Source of the DNA: Cryomorphaceae bacterium BACL29 MAG-121220-bin8
GTDB lineage: Bacteria; Bacteroidota; Bacteroidia; Flavobacteriales; Flavobacteriaceae
Length of the DNA stretch: 42,143 nt
Direction: 5' to 3'
Assembly: GCA_905182765.1 (NCBI GenBank)
Contig: CAJJCV010000012.1
Location: forward strand, 1-42,143
Under the pieces are notes generated by a model, which was not told where the DNA came from, did no database searches, and saw only the letters and a list, made by a program, of their open reading frames with translations. A program made the position numbers and the translations under genes. Positions 2,732-38,042 of the stretch are shown piece after piece; position 1 is the first letter of the stretch, and every line of letters starts with the position of its first letter.

Positions 2732-3829
2732 ATGAAAAATTTAATTAAGCTTGTTATTAACTTGACTGTATTCTGTTTAATTTTTTTAAACACAAATCTT
2801 TTATTTTCTCAAGAAAGTAAAAGTAAGTTTACGGTTGTTTTAGATGCTGGTCATGGAGGAAAAGATCCTGGAAATCGAGGTAATGGATATTATGAAAAAA
2901 ATATAGCCTTGTCAATAGCTTTAAAAGTTGGAGCTGAGTTAGAAAAACAAAGTAATATTAAAGTTATATACACTAGAAAAAAAGATGTTTTTGTAAATCT
3001 ATTTAAAAGAGCTGAAATTGCTAATAAAGTAAAAGCTGATTTATTTATCTCAATTCACTGTGATGCTCATACATCTAATGCTTATGGAGCAGGAACTTTT
3101 GTTTTAGGCTTACATGCAAACCAAAGAAATTTTGAAATTGCAAAAAAAGAAAATTCAGTTATTTTCAAGGAAGAAAACTATGAGCAAAAATATGATGGAT
3201 TTGATCCTAATTCTCCAGAATCTGTCATAAGTTTAGTACTTATGCAGGAAGACTATTTAGATCAAAGCATAGTAATTGCAGATTTAATTCAAAAGGCCTT
3301 TGTTTCTGATTTGAATAGAAAAAACAGGACAGTTAAACAAGCTGGATTTATAGTTTTAAAATATACTTATATGCCTAGCGTTTTAGTTGAAACAGGATTT
3401 TTAACAAATAAAAAAGAAGGTGCTTATTTGAATTCTAAAAAAGGTCAAAAAGAAATATCCAAATCAATTTCTAATGGAATATTAAGATATAGAAACTCTA
3501 TTATTTCTGGTGTTATTAATAACGACAGTCAATTGTTTAGCGATCTTGACGAAAATTATACTGACGATTATTTTTTAAAAATTCAAATAGCTTCAAGTTC
3601 AAAAAAAGTACCTTTAAAATCATACAATTTCAAAGGCTTAATCAATCTTAGTTACACAAAAAATAGTAATGTTTATAGATATTATTATGAAAAGACTCAG
3701 AATTATGAACAAGCTAAAGACATATTAAAAACAGCTATTAATGCTGGTTTTAAAGATGCTTTAATTGTTGGTTTTAAAAATGATAAAAATATTACGATTG
3801 AAGAATATTTATCTTCTTATAAAAATTAA
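2732..3829 (+). CDS. N-acetylmuramoyl-L-alanine amidase (Amidase_3) with SPOR-like tail
   Basis: Periplasmic zinc amidase that cleaves the bond between MurNAc and the stem peptide in peptidoglycan, usually for daughter-cell separation. Signal peptide at residues 1-26 (LNTNLLFSQ). The catalytic domain has all expected residues: H41 in VVLDAGHGGKDPGN, E55 in YYEKNIALS, H109 in ISIHCDAH, and the catalytic E220 in VLVETGFLTN. After residue ~280 a ~75-residue segment (YFLKIQIASS ... AINAGFKDALIVGF) looks like a SPOR-type peptidoglycan-binding domain, which is an inference from pattern. ATG start directly before the signal peptide. It is followed after 47 bases by the MCE-domain gene. Confidence 0.93.
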   Translation: MKNLIKLVINLTVFCLIFLNTNLLFSQESKSKFTVVLDAGHGGKDPGNRGNGYYEKNIALSIALKVGAELEKQSNIKVIYTRKKDVFVNLFKRAEIANKVKADLFISIHCDAHTSNAYGAGTFVLGLHANQRNFEIAKKENSVIFKEENYEQKYDGFDPNSPESVISLVLMQEDYLDQSIVIADLIQKAFVSDLNRKNRTVKQAGFIVLKYTYMPSVLVETGFLTNKKEGAYLNSKKGQKEISKSISNGILRYRNSIISGVINNDSQLFSDLDENYTDDYFLKIQIASSSKKVPLKSYNFKGLINLSYTKNSNVYRYYYEKTQNYEQAKDILKTAINAGFKDALIVGFKNDKNITIEEYLSSYKN

Positions 3830-3876
3830 TTTTTGATTAAATAATTCATAACTTTGATATAATTCAATAATACAAT

Positions 3877-4815
3877 TTGAAAAATAAAAACGAAATAAAA
3901 ACTGGAATTTTAGTCATTATTGGTGTTGGCCTATTCATTTTTGGTTTTAGTTATCTAAAATCTAATGATATCTTTGTGAGCGACAGGACGTTTTACTCTG
4001 TTTATGATGATGTAGAGGGCGTTGTTAATGGTACTCCAGTTACTGTTAATGGATATCCTGTAGGTAGTATAACAGATATATCTTTTTTTACTAATAATCG
4101 TTTAATTGTTAAGTTTAGAGTTGAGAATGATATCAAGTTTTCTGTCAATAGTATAGCACAGATTTATGAAACTGGTCTTATTGGTGGGAAAGCTCTTGCG
4201 ATTATACCAGCTATGGATAATAGCAGGGTAGCTGTTTCTCTAGACACTTTAAAATCCTCTGTTGCACCTGGTTTAACTGAGCTTGTTAATCAAAAATTAA
4301 CTCCTTTACAAGATAATATTGAAACTATGATTCTTAGTGCAAATGCTGTTTTAGAAAAAGTTAACTCAATTTTTGATGATCCTACTAGATCCAATCTACG
4401 TACAAGTGTTTCTGATTTTTCTGAAACAATTACTGACTTAAAGGAAACTAGCGCTATGATTAAATCTATAGTAAAGTCTAATAAACTCAGTATTAATAAC
4501 TCAATTGAAAATATTAATAATATTTCATCAGATCTTTCATCTATTTCCAGTACAATTAAATCAAGTGATTTAGAATTAACTTTAAATAATTTAAAATCAT
4601 CTTCTGATAATTTATCCATTGTTTTAGATAATATAAATAATGGAAACGGTTCTTTATCAAAACTAATTTCTAATGATTCTTTGTTCAATAATTTAAATAA
4701 CGCTTCAAAATCAATTGACCTTTTACTTGAAGATATAAGGCTGAACCCAAAAAGGTATATTCATTTTTCAGTTTTTGGAAAAAAAAACAAAGCCTTTCAA
4801 TCAAATAAAAATTAA
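3877..4815 (+). CDS. MlaD/MCE family lipid-transport protein
   Basis: Membrane-anchored MCE protein, the substrate-binding type of component in ABC systems that move phospholipids between inner and outer membrane. One N-terminal membrane helix (residues 7-25, TGILVIIGVGLFIFGFSYL) is followed by the MCE domain at about 35-110 (YDDVEGVVNGTPVTVNGYPVG ... YETGLIGGKALAI). The C-terminal half is a long Ser/Asn/Ile/Leu-rich helical region typical of these proteins. The start is a TTG, supported because the helix begins seven residues later and no ATG lies in reach. The permease and ATPase partners are not in this window. Followed 3 bases later by the Fe-S membrane protein. Confidence 0.88.
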   Translation: MKNKNEIKTGILVIIGVGLFIFGFSYLKSNDIFVSDRTFYSVYDDVEGVVNGTPVTVNGYPVGSITDISFFTNNRLIVKFRVENDIKFSVNSIAQIYETGLIGGKALAIIPAMDNSRVAVSLDTLKSSVAPGLTELVNQKLTPLQDNIETMILSANAVLEKVNSIFDDPTRSNLRTSVSDFSETITDLKETSAMIKSIVKSNKLSINNSIENINNISSDLSSISSTIKSSDLELTLNNLKSSSDNLSIVLDNINNGNGSLSKLISNDSLFNNLNNASKSIDLLLEDIRLNPKRYIHFSVFGKKNKAFQSNKN

Positions 4816-35987: not shown

Positions 35988-36349
35988 TTTTTACTGTCTA
36001 TAAATGCATTGAGCCATATTAACCTTGACAGGTAATAATTAACTGGAGAAAGAATTAAAATGCTTAAGCCAATTATAGCGGTAAGAGCTACAATGTTTTT
36101 AAATTGAAACACAGCGAGTGCAATAATTAATATTATTGATCCTAATCCTATTCCTAAACCATAACTTACAAACATTGCTCCATAAAAAAACCCAGGCTCT
36201 ATCTCAAATTTTAATTCACAATTTGAACATTTACTGTGATTCTCACCTGCTTTAAAAAATAAATTATAGTAGGGGTTATTGCTTTTCCAAAAACTTCCCT
36301 TAGAGCATTTTGGACATTTGTTAAATAAAATACTGTAGAGTTTCCCCAT
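35984..36349 (-). CDS. DUF983 family membrane protein with zinc ribbon
   Basis: 121 residues. Two CxxC pairs near the N-terminus (KCPKCSKGSFW and HSKCSNCELKFEIEPGFFYGAMFVSYGLG) form a likely zinc ribbon, followed by two membrane helices. The EPGFFYGAMFVSY segment is the DUF983 signature. Role unknown, although the family is widespread in Bacteroidota and alphaproteobacteria. ATG start. A 62-residue membrane ORF lies 24 bases upstream on the same strand. Confidence 0.88.
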   Translation of the reverse strand: MGKLYSILFNKCPKCSKGSFWKSNNPYYNLFFKAGENHSKCSNCELKFEIEPGFFYGAMFVSYGLGIGLGSIILIIALAVFQFKNIVALTAIIGLSILILSPVNYYLSRLIWLNAFIDSKN

Positions 36350-36373
36350 TTTAATTACTAAGTAAATATTAAG

Positions 36374-36562
36374 TTAGTTATTCTTTTTTTTTGAGATAAA
36401 ATGTTCAACGGAAAGAATGATAATAAAAAGTATTATCAATTTAAAAAACCGATTATAATCCCAGTTTAATAAATTAAAATGAGTTTGAAATCCTCCAATT
36501 ACATCAATAGATGTTAGTAAATATGATAGTAATATTCCCTCAAGTATTTTTCTTTTTTTCAT
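36374..36562 (-). CDS. Small membrane protein of unknown function
   Basis: 62 residues: MKKRKILEGILLSYLLTSID, a loop with NLLNWDYNRFF, and a second helix LIILFIIILSVEHFISKKKNN. Basic ends and two hydrophobic stretches give it a plausible membrane topology. Not recognised. It is immediately upstream of DUF983 and may share its transcript. Between it and the terminator at 36711 only a 21-codon plus-strand frame was seen, which is not supported. Confidence 0.5.
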   Translation of the reverse strand: MKKRKILEGILLSYLLTSIDVIGGFQTHFNLLNWDYNRFFKLIILFIIILSVEHFISKKKNN

Positions 36563-36710
36563 TTACTTTAAATTAGAAATGCTATTGATTTAAGTTCATT
36601 AGAATAATTAATATGAAAAGACTCATGAAAATGATAAATACAATAGTACTAAAGTGTTTTTTCATTTTTCTAATATAGTAAATCGATATTTATATTAAGG
36701 TAAATAGTAA

Positions 36711-36732
36711 AAAACCCTCAAAAGAGGGTTTT
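36711..36732 (-). terminator. Rho-independent terminator after the YceI-CDGSH unit
   Basis: AAAACCCTC (36711-36719) pairs perfectly with GAGGGTTTT (36724-36732) around a four-base A loop. On the minus strand six T residues follow, so it ends the CDGSH gene at 36736 four bases after its stop. The plus-strand side also has a broken T run. Confidence 0.8.
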
Positions 36733-36735
36733 GTT

Positions 36736-36828
36736 TTAATTATTTAAATGTGAACCATCACAATATCCATTAGGATCTTGAGTATTTCCGCATCCACACT
36801 TTGGACGATTTTGTTTTATGTGAATCAT
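36736..36828 (-). CDS. 30-residue CDGSH-type iron-sulfur protein
   Basis: ATG at 36828, TAA at 36736, product length 30. The sequence is essentially one CDGSH motif: RPKCGCGNTQDPNGYCDGSH with C11, C13, C23 and H27. The three-Cys/one-His set is what binds a 2Fe-2S cluster in the family, although the spacing before the third Cys is slightly longer than the textbook pattern. Four bases after the YceI stop and just before a terminator, so it is the last gene of a two-gene unit. Possibly a minimal redox or iron-sensing protein. Confidence 0.7.
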   Translation of the reverse strand: MIHIKQNRPKCGCGNTQDPNGYCDGSHLNN

Positions 36829-36832
36829 ATTT

Positions 36833-37396
36833 TTATATTTTATTTAATATTACCTCTAAATTAATTTCATCGTAAATCAAATTATCACCTAAATTTTCAA
36901 AGAAACTACCCGAACCAAATTGAATATCATATTTTGATCTGTCAAATTTTAATATACTTTTAATTTTGTCATCATAAACTTCCAAGGTAAAATCAATAGG
37001 ATGGGTAATACCTTTGATTGTTAAATCCCCTGTAAGATTATAAGAGTTTTCTTTTTGAGAATTAACTTTTTTGATGATTAAGTTTGCTTCTGGGTGTTTA
37101 TCAACAGAAAAAAAATCATCTGATTTTAAATGGCCCTCAAGTTTTTGTTTCCATTCACCTGATAAATCATCATTTGTTATTGTTTTCATGTCAACTTTAA
37201 ATTGCCCTGAAACTTCTATTTTATTTTTAATTTTTATTTCAGCTTCTTTAAATTTTAAAGTTCCAGTATGAGATTGATTTGTAATTTTTGTGCCTTTCCA
37301 TTGTATTTTGCTTGACTCTAAATTATATTCAGATTGTGCAAACGAAAGTGATGATACGGCAATTAATAGTAGTGATAATAAAGTTTTTGTTTTCAT
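36833..37396 (-). CDS. YceI family periplasmic lipocalin-like protein
   Basis: Exported 187-residue protein (signal peptide to residue ~20, SLSFAQ). The mature domain has the YceI pattern: SEYNLESSKIQWKGTKITNQSHTGTLKF, FKVDMKTITNDDL, KLEGHLKSDDFFSVDKHPEANLIIKKV and TGDLTIKGITHPIDFTLEV. The family binds polyisoprenoid-like lipids in a barrel. It is divergent from an HxlR regulator with a palindromic site between, so control by that regulator is a reasonable inference. Confidence 0.93.
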   Translation of the reverse strand: MKTKTLLSLLLIAVSSLSFAQSEYNLESSKIQWKGTKITNQSHTGTLKFKEAEIKIKNKIEVSGQFKVDMKTITNDDLSGEWKQKLEGHLKSDDFFSVDKHPEANLIIKKVNSQKENSYNLTGDLTIKGITHPIDFTLEVYDDKIKSILKFDRSKYDIQFGSGSFFENLGDNLIYDEINLEVILNKI

Positions 37397-37424
37397 ATTT
37401 ATTTTTTTGTTAAAGCAATATTAC

Positions 37425-37432
37425 TACATTTG
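37425..37432 (+). promoter_or_regulatory. Candidate -7 element for the HxlR regulator
   Basis: TACATTTG fits TAnnTTTG. It lies 74 bases before the regulator's ATG and eleven bases before the palindrome at 37443, so transcription would begin next to or inside that palindrome. A TTTG lies 15 bases upstream, shorter than the usual -33 to -7 spacing. Confidence 0.4.
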
Positions 37433-37442
37433 GTAATATAAA

Positions 37443-37454
37443 GTAACTTGTTAC
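37443..37454. promoter_or_regulatory. Palindromic operator candidate between yceI and hxlR
   Basis: GTAAC-TT-GTTAC is a perfect inverted repeat in the 109-base divergent region. A further half-site GTAAC occurs 18 bases on, at 37461. Size, symmetry and position beside the candidate start site suit binding by the winged-helix HxlR protein encoded just downstream. Confidence 0.5.
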
Positions 37455-37505
37455 CTTTAAGTAACTATAATTTTCTAGGAACCTACAGGTCACTAAAACA
37501 GTATT

Positions 37506-37811
37506 ATGAAAGTAACTAATGACATATGTCCGGTTGTATCCTTCACAGAAATGCTAGGGGGGAAGTGGAAGTTGATTATAATCAATACAATAAGAAATAG
37601 GGGAGTTATAAGGTTTGGTCAACTTGCTTCATCAATTCCAAATATTTCTAGAAAGGTTTTAACGGATCAATTAAAAAGTTTAGAGGGTGATAATCTTATT
37701 TCAAGAAAACAATATCAACAAATTCCTCCAAAAGTCGAGTATTCTTTAACAAAAAAAGCAGATGGCTTATGTTCGGTTTTTAAAACAATTGAAGAATGGA
37801 TTAAAAAATGA
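37506..37811 (+). CDS. HxlR family winged-helix transcriptional regulator
   Basis: 101-residue DNA-binding protein. The N-terminal DICPVVSFTEMLGGKWKLIIINTI, with C8, and FGQLASSIPNISRKVLTDQLKSLEGDNLISRKQYQQIPPKVEYSLT are diagnostic of HxlR/MarR-like winged helices. C8 is at the position that senses oxidants or quinones in several relatives, so a redox or electrophile signal is a reasonable inference. Divergent from yceI with the GTAAC palindrome between. ATG start; ends 9 bases before DUF3820. Confidence 0.93.
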   Translation: MKVTNDICPVVSFTEMLGGKWKLIIINTIRNRGVIRFGQLASSIPNISRKVLTDQLKSLEGDNLISRKQYQQIPPKVEYSLTKKADGLCSVFKTIEEWIKK

Positions 37812-37820
37812 CAATAATCA

Positions 37821-38042
37821 ATGATTGAAGATAAACAGTTTCTTATAGACCTAGCTAAAATGAAAATGCCTTATGGAAAGTACAAGGGAAGATATTTAAT
37901 TGATCTTCCTGAGCATTATTTGATTTGGTATAAAAACAAAGGTTTTCCTAATGGAAAAATAGGGAAACAACTTGAATCAGTTTATGAAATCCAATTAAAT
38001 GGATTAGAAGATATAGTTAGACAGGTTCGAAAAAGATATTAG
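37821..38042 (+). CDS. DUF3820 family protein
   Basis: 73-residue cytoplasmic protein. The MPYGKYKGRYLIDLPEHYLIWY core, with the conserved G-K-Y-K-G and LPEHYLxWY, is the DUF3820 signature, sometimes labelled a quorum-sensing-regulated virulence factor without support. The C-terminal KGFPNGKIGKQLE is also family-like. Nine bases after the HxlR regulator, so it may be co-transcribed. Function unknown. Confidence 0.85.
   Translation: MIEDKQFLIDLAKMKMPYGKYKGRYLIDLPEHYLIWYKNKGFPNGKIGKQLESVYEIQLNGLEDIVRQVRKRY

Follow-up and report, generated by a model that had tools for sequence, protein, structure and literature searches.

A microprotein gene of 30 residues with the ligand set of a CDGSH iron–sulfur site lies directly behind yceI in the window, by which we mean the whole 42,143-nucleotide stretch of Cryomorphaceae bacterium BACL29 MAG-121220-bin8 that was analysed (one contig of a 1.4 Mb genome in 54 contigs, about 80 percent complete). 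It is a coding gene under purifying selection and, judged by its sequence, its product differs from a canonical CDGSH domain in more than size. Our leading reading is a tentative one, which we place a little short of an even chance: the product would be a metal-templated mini CDGSH module, probably holding a [2Fe-2S] cluster, that belongs to a thiol/quinone-stress regulon and works on the cytoplasmic face with YceI, DoxX or a flavin reductase. The features of the locus are as follows.

36736–36828, minus strand: microprotein ORF of 30 residues (ATG at 36828, TAA at 36738–36736), encoding MIHIKQNRPKCGCGNTQDPNGYCDGSHLNN
36748–36798, minus strand: proposed metal site, CxC-x9-CDGSH, codons C11 to H27 (17 residues from Cys to His, 18 including K10)
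36833–37396, minus strand: yceI, 187 residues, first gene of the pair (Pfam PF04264, E 9.1e-24)
36711–36732, minus strand: terminator-like stem-loop of nine pairs with a four-base loop, then T-rich
37443–37465, no strand: putative operator-like array (GTAAC at 37443, GTTAC at 37450, GTAAC at 37461)
37506–37811, plus strand: divergent HxlR-family regulator (Pfam PF01638, E 2.9e-26) with N-terminal Cys8 (CPV)

Translation bears out the first-pass annotation, which had described a 30-residue CDGSH-type frame with C11, C13, C23 and H27; the strand is the minus strand. As it had also stated, the frame starts four bases (36829–36832) after the end of yceI at 36833, and the terminator it had placed just past the microprotein corresponds to a terminator-like nine-pair stem (36732–36711) three bases beyond the stop codon. 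Within 36300–37900 there are two terminator-like matches, which are one palindrome read on both strands; 0.3 were expected in shuffles. Because only four bases separate it from yceI and the stem comes right after its stop codon, the microprotein gene appears to close a unit of two genes. The YceI protein of the window has an N-terminal signal-peptide-like segment, and the gap between hxlR and yceI is 109 bases. On the other side of the regulator, a 73-residue PF12843 protein (E 2.3e-31) is encoded at 37821–38042 on the plus strand, starting nine bases past the end of hxlR.

Concerning the distribution of the microprotein, a protein search found relatives in 13 of 199 genomes of the family, at 16 places (L003–L018), all of which keep CxC-x9-CDG(S/T)H with the four ligands. 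A scan of genome_contigs, which spans other phyla, gave 254 pattern matches and 193 relatives; the best 80 of these 193 loci (L019–L098) were read and contain 81 genes, each with a spacing of 9 and the full 3Cys-1His set, and since they are the best loci found by two peptide patterns, diverged forms are under-represented among them. All of these best 80 of 193 carry a Bacteroidota label, which in almost every case is Flavobacteriales or just Bacteroidetes; L033 is labelled Spirosoma, yet its locus is closely like L031. Outside Bacteroidota, the sampling covered viral, plasmid and named-phage collections. The order samples contain 28 matching genomes out of 395 at E 1e-4. In a broad sample of the phylum 35 of 395 genomes match at E 1e-2, the window genome alone strongly and the others at 6.2e-5 at best; there the motif is canonical wherever it is found (25 of 29 loci, L100–L128), with a spacing of 8.

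The stand-alone host proteins (79 distinct) have a median length of 28 residues and range from 25 to 38. The four ligands and their spacing are invariant in all 78 distinct host core peptides, which were partly gathered by motif patterns, so that part of this invariance is built in. Nearest-pair codon comparisons gave a dN/dS of 0.094 among host copies (55 pairs) and of 0.172 among viral ones (24 pairs). Loss of the Cys/His residues or of the frame in relatives, which the first-pass annotation had named as the finding that would speak against it, was seen only in two damaged copies, L137 (an in-frame TAA within the motif) and L077 (no start codon). These two copies could be taken, together with the very short ORF and with the presence of only a stand-alone type copy in G004, the one further genome of the genus that was encountered (93 percent complete), as signs of a chance or decayed frame or of an upstream-type regulatory ORF in place of a protein gene. 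Such a reading is contradicted by the selection test in the host pairs, by the spacing of 9 in every copy read and by the translation of the motif inside longer YceI, RicT-like and phage fusion proteins, and we regard it as extremely improbable.

The window genome has a second copy (L016, G000:C1:51256–51336, minus strand), MSDKPKCGCGNTQNPDGFCDGSHNNQVD, without an adjacent YceI, and stand-alone copies resembling it are L012, L017, L048, L079 and L081. L018 contains, around position 1507, a 58-residue frame with the diverged motif CSCGQTSNPYGICDGTH; another copy in genome G187 lies about 10 kb away. L029 is a tandem pair of different subtypes (3995–4084 and 4252–4335) downstream of HxlR and YceI.

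The canonical CDGSH motif is 17 residues long, PhiCxCxx(S/T)xxxP(Phi)CDG(S/T/A)H, and the CISD definition includes a universal Pro at position 11 and hydrophobic residues at positions 1 and 12 (PMC3174974, in the text accessible to us). The window motif has 18 residues, K10-C11-x-C13-G-N-T16-x-x-P-x-G21-x-C23-D-G-S-H27. The 3Cys-1His set with the CDG(S/T/A)H signature is present in the window protein and in all of the 16, 81, 28 and 80 copies read (L137, with its stop within the motif, was left out of the motif counts). The 17-residue CxC-x8-C form is absent, as the spacing is 9 in all microprotein copies counted. The earlier assignment to the CDGSH motif stands for the ligands, with the correction, which it had not foreseen, that CxC-x9-CDGSH is one residue longer than the canonical CxC-x8-CDGSH. 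Motif position 1 is Lys in 60 of the 78 host cores, where the canonical motif has its hydrophobic residue, and the fixed Pro 11 is missing: a Pro is found in only 51 of 78 cores, elsewhere in the longer loop. In 59 of 78 cores a Y or F stands immediately before the third Cys, and Gly21, present in 77 of 78, is new with respect to the canonical motif.

Differences can also be found outside the motif. A beta-sandwich is said to be required for CDGSH proteins, and the known modules come in pairs (PMC3174974, same portion). Each microprotein has a single motif, and the flanks in the 79 distinct proteins measure only 5–10 residues before the first Cys and 2–12 after the His, too short to accommodate the N-strand, P motif or beta-sandwich. 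Since the protein is also very hydrophilic, with about 10 percent hydrophobic residues, any fold would be organised by the metal. In Pfam the window protein has no match at E 10; zf-CDGSH (PF09360) matches weakly in 38 of 69 relatives, with a best E of 0.0026, and the PF09360 matches at E 1e-3 in the 13 carriers include no microprotein place. The only NCBIfam model to respond to the 69 sequences was that of allose kinase (9 of 69, best E 0.068), an implausible family for this peptide. A PDB profile search gave 3tbm_A as the best match (E 0.026), in an alignment that needs a one-residue gap, and AlphaFold run on the 69 sequences returned a poor model (pLDDT 61, pTM 0.23) without a confident strand. 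Based on these comparisons, the nearest known proteins are the CISD/NEET proteins (zf-CDGSH, PF09360), especially bacterial single-motif types 3, 4 and 7: the 3Cys-1His ligands are common to both, and Thr/Ser at motif position 7 and the CDGS(H) signature are kept, whereas the microprotein has 18 motif residues against 17, no fixed Pro or first hydrophobic residue, no N-strand, P motif or beta-sandwich and no significant family-model match. It thus shares the ligands, and presumably the chemistry, of CISDs, while several of the structural features that define them are absent. The window genome also encodes a canonical zf-CDGSH protein (L001, G000:C24:15904–16035, 52.7 bits) with a spacing of 8.

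The coupling to YceI proposed from the window is frequent across the collection. The gene lies only a few bases away from YceI or from another redox or membrane gene, and a HxlR or MarR regulator is often close by. Among the 81 genes of the best 80 of 193 loci, YceI is directly upstream of 55, fused to one, not adjacent to 22 and untestable for three, so that YceI is adjacent upstream or fused in 56 of the 78 genes that could be tested. Other partners exist besides YceI, a point that the first-pass annotation had not foreseen. Regulators near the 55 YceI-linked genes are MarR-family proteins for 22 and divergent HxlR proteins for 13; one flank is too short, and for 19 of the 55 neither type is present within the distances searched. 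In the genes without YceI, HxlR faces the microprotein, which is followed by DoxX, in L031, L032, L033 and L095 (L075 has HxlR only), and the order YidC, microprotein, NADPH-FMN reductase, pirin is found in L041, L042, L056, L058, L071 and L090. Partner families were searched in Pfam for L031 (DoxX, E 5.3e-6), L032 (DoxX, below the cut-off) and L041 (NADPH-FMN reductase, E 1.9e-24; pirin, E 5e-15), and the other DoxX and reductase loci were assigned by sequence likeness. The MarR protein at L006 matches its family at E 4.5e-10. A reductase also follows L014, which lacks YceI, and an FMN-reductase-like gene follows the YceI-linked copy L009.

The motif is also seen as part of longer proteins. 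In 11 loci (L015, L046, L135, L138, L139, L141–L144, L148 and L157) it lies in frame before the signal or membrane segment of YceI; a twelfth, L137, is broken by its stop. In seven of the 11 an in-frame ATG, GTG or TTG could start YceI separately (six of these starts lie between the motif and the hydrophobic segment, and the ATG of L015 lies inside the segment that was taken as hydrophobic). No in-frame start separates the two in L135, L139, L142 and L148, and since re-initiation is possible in the other seven, the YceI fusion is firm only for these four. The motif also forms the C-terminal end of PSP1/RicT-like proteins, after a Lys-rich stretch, in L149 and L153–L155 (PF04468 for L153, E 4.6e-28), while the PSP1/RicT-like protein of the window genome has a Lys-rich tail without the motif.

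Concerning regulation, all 17 distinct divergent HxlR proteins have an N-terminal Cys with Val two residues later. In HypR, YodB and CatR a Cys of this kind is the sensor for HOCl, quinones and diamide (PMC6943732, accessible part), and formaldehyde sensing by B. subtilis HxlR needs a Lys two places after the Cys (PMC7835342, accessible part). As this residue is Val and not Lys in all 17, the proteins do not form the formaldehyde-sensing HxlR pair. The 18 distinct HxlR intergenic regions contain 83 GTTAC/GTAAC sites, where dinucleotide shuffles give 9.8 (sd 3.0), and a palindromic pair is present in 15 of the 18, where 0.07 would be expected. The pattern was chosen after the sequences had been seen, and because the regions share ancestry they are less independent than the shuffles assume. 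The array precedes both YceI and microprotein–DoxX at HxlR loci. The microprotein is thus plausibly under HxlR control, with the array as operator candidate, and the earlier proposal that it shares the control of yceI is well supported, by the array common to HxlR–YceI and HxlR–CDGSH–DoxX loci, but unproven. The HypR, YodB and CatR regulons of B. subtilis are similar in that they have an HxlR/DUF24-type regulator with an N-terminal Cys (PMC6943732) and adjoining flavin reductase and DoxX genes. CatD is a DoxX protein. The targets here, YceI and the microprotein, are the difference.

The partner set of YceI, DoxX, NADPH-FMN reductase and pirin points to quinone or thiol stress, and the leading reading can be put in the following steps. 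Thiol or quinone stress would inactivate the regulator; the 3Cys-1His set of the microprotein would hold a [2Fe-2S] cluster; and the protein, which has no signal peptide, would work in the cytoplasm near the inner membrane. There it might pass electrons from flavin reduced by NAD(P)H flavin reductases to the quinone-handling partners YceI and DoxX, or alternatively report their redox state. In the YceI-fused copies the module would sit inside the cell, ahead of the signal or membrane segment. Relatives of the YceI lipocalin bind ubiquinone-8 (PMC9113575), and mitoNEET together with a flavin reductase and FMN carries electrons from NADH to O2 or ubiquinone (PMC9490426), each according to the part of the source accessible to us. 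By analogy, the latter is the closest mechanism in print: the proposed route likewise runs from flavin through a CDGSH cluster to quinone, and some relatives adjoin an NADPH-FMN reductase gene, but mitoNEET is dimeric, anchored in a membrane and about 108 residues long (PMC9490426). The closest architecture for the YceI-fused forms is LcoA–BcnA of alpha-proteobacteria, in which cytochrome b561 is linked to, or fused ahead of, the YceI lipocalin BcnA, with a linker in place of the lipocalin signal peptide, and in which mutants show increased membrane lipid peroxidation (PMC9113575, same part). In both systems a redox module is encoded together with YceI and in some cases fused ahead of it, the two parts joining at the signal-peptide region; the redox module is a haem membrane protein there and a CDGSH-like peptide on the cytoplasmic side here, and the parallel is architectural only.

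Several observations count against the leading reading. The motif length, the first hydrophobic residue and the fixed Pro are non-canonical, there is no room for a beta-sandwich, 22 of the 78 testable genes have no adjacent YceI, and 19 of the 55 YceI-linked genes have neither regulator type within the distances searched. As YceI is exported, contact with an unfused microprotein in the cytoplasm would have to come before export or across the membrane. We also considered the microprotein as a replacement for cytochrome b561 and rejected the idea: PF01292 is found in one of 12 carriers, but few genomes of the family have it at all (9 of 60 over the cut-off, 15 of 60 at E 1e-3, in a sample that includes a few carriers), so its absence from 11 of 12 says little.

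Among the other accounts of the metal site, the one nearest in probability to an electron-transfer module, although unlikely, is a zinc knuckle: the CxC...C...H peptide would then bind Zn and act as a tag, either structural or for docking to proteins. Such a peptide is presumably comparable to the SEC-C tail of SecA. The very hydrophilic composition, the use of the motif as an N- or C-terminal appendage (including after the Lys-rich tail of RicT-like proteins), its departure from the canonical [2Fe-2S] form and an extra Cys at position 15 in 15 of 34 viral cores all suit a zinc site; the Asp, Gly, Ser and His of the CDGSH signature, found in 78 of 78 host cores, go beyond what a knuckle needs, and the neighbouring genes are of redox type.

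Considerably less probable is a [2Fe-2S] cluster that serves as a labile sensor or carrier, being lost, donated or nitrosylated, and not used for electron transfer. The thiol-sensor-type regulators would agree with this, as would the fusion to RicT-like proteins (PF04468). A B. subtilis relative of the RicT-like proteins is part of an iron–sulfur complex. A further point in its favour is that redox cycling of the mitoNEET cluster is blocked when NO binds to its reduced form (PMC9490426, accessible portion); the linked reductase and quinone-type genes, however, suit electron transfer at least as well. The last account, that of a non-autonomous subunit which pairs with a canonical CDGSH protein encoded elsewhere in the genome, we consider very improbable. 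Known CDGSH modules are indeed paired (PMC3174974, in the part cited above), the window genome has a canonical copy (G000:C24, 52.7 bits), and one is over the cut-off in seven of the 13 carriers, but six of the 13, some of them incomplete genomes, have none at E 1e-3, and the microprotein lacks the interface residues of the canonical motif.

As to what the microprotein may represent, it is a conserved gene class missed by the family models searched. The accessible text of PMC5859297 and PMC3174974 describes no such 18-residue or microprotein form, and searches of the open-licence PMC literature found no report of a CDGSH microprotein in flavobacteria, with YceI or in phages. A bolder proposal, which we regard as possible but doubtful, is that of an autonomous natural iron–sulfur protein of 25–30 residues with no fold beyond the cluster loop. 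Flavobacteria and phages would use this portable mini-cofactor, which has an 18-residue motif of its own, as a free protein, and it would also be attached to YceI (ahead of the membrane) and to RicT-like proteins. If true, this would run against the idea that a CDGSH site requires a beta-sandwich and a second module, and the microprotein would be among the smallest natural iron–sulfur proteins. Binding of a cluster would lower the known size limit for such proteins, and the CDGSH loop would then work without the dimeric beta-sandwich thought to be required. The microprotein would also be a candidate for the redox partner of the YceI lipocalins in flavobacteria, a role comparable to that of cytochrome b561 in Proteobacteria.

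Copies are also found in viral sequences, which the first-pass annotation had not foreseen. The IMG/VR scan gave 188 pattern matches and 169 relatives, and the best 80 of the 169 (L158–L237) were read, among which diverged forms are under-represented. These best 80 comprise 47 stand-alone copies and 33 with a C-terminal extension of 64–86 residues, and contain 41 distinct motif-region peptides. Checked with PHROGs at named loci within these 80, phage origin is firm by neighbour matches for L174, L177, L188, L198, L202, L215 and L234 (tail and virion proteins, endolysin, primase, exonuclease, terminases, clamp loader and DNA polymerase), while the neighbours of L206 (GroEL), L164, L200 and L209 gave nothing decisive. 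PHROGs itself has no match for the window protein, for one phage microprotein (24 residues of it) or for the phage fusion, and the plasmid and named-phage collections gave no match either, which is little evidence of absence because queries so short are weak there. The viral-collection copy closest to the host form, L158, lies among sugar-nucleotide genes and is of uncertain phage status.

A peptidase of an endolysin family (PHROGs) is encoded within 1.5 kb of 35 of the 47 stand-alone viral copies (20 of 29 distinct cores). In 28 of the 47 a small membrane-protein gene ends at most 21 bases before the first Cys codon, so that the two genes overlap or abut; holin-like is our own label for this gene, to which PHROGs gave no function. 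The phage copies near lysis genes are the part least explained by electron transfer, and they raise the question of why phages keep the same peptide, often in this setting. In a freshwater group the microprotein is fused to a domain of about 85 residues, for which neither Pfam nor PHROGs gave a match (L174 tested). On one viral contig, L206, the microprotein is followed within a few bases by a GroEL gene (3083–4678), and a GroES-like gene lies further on.
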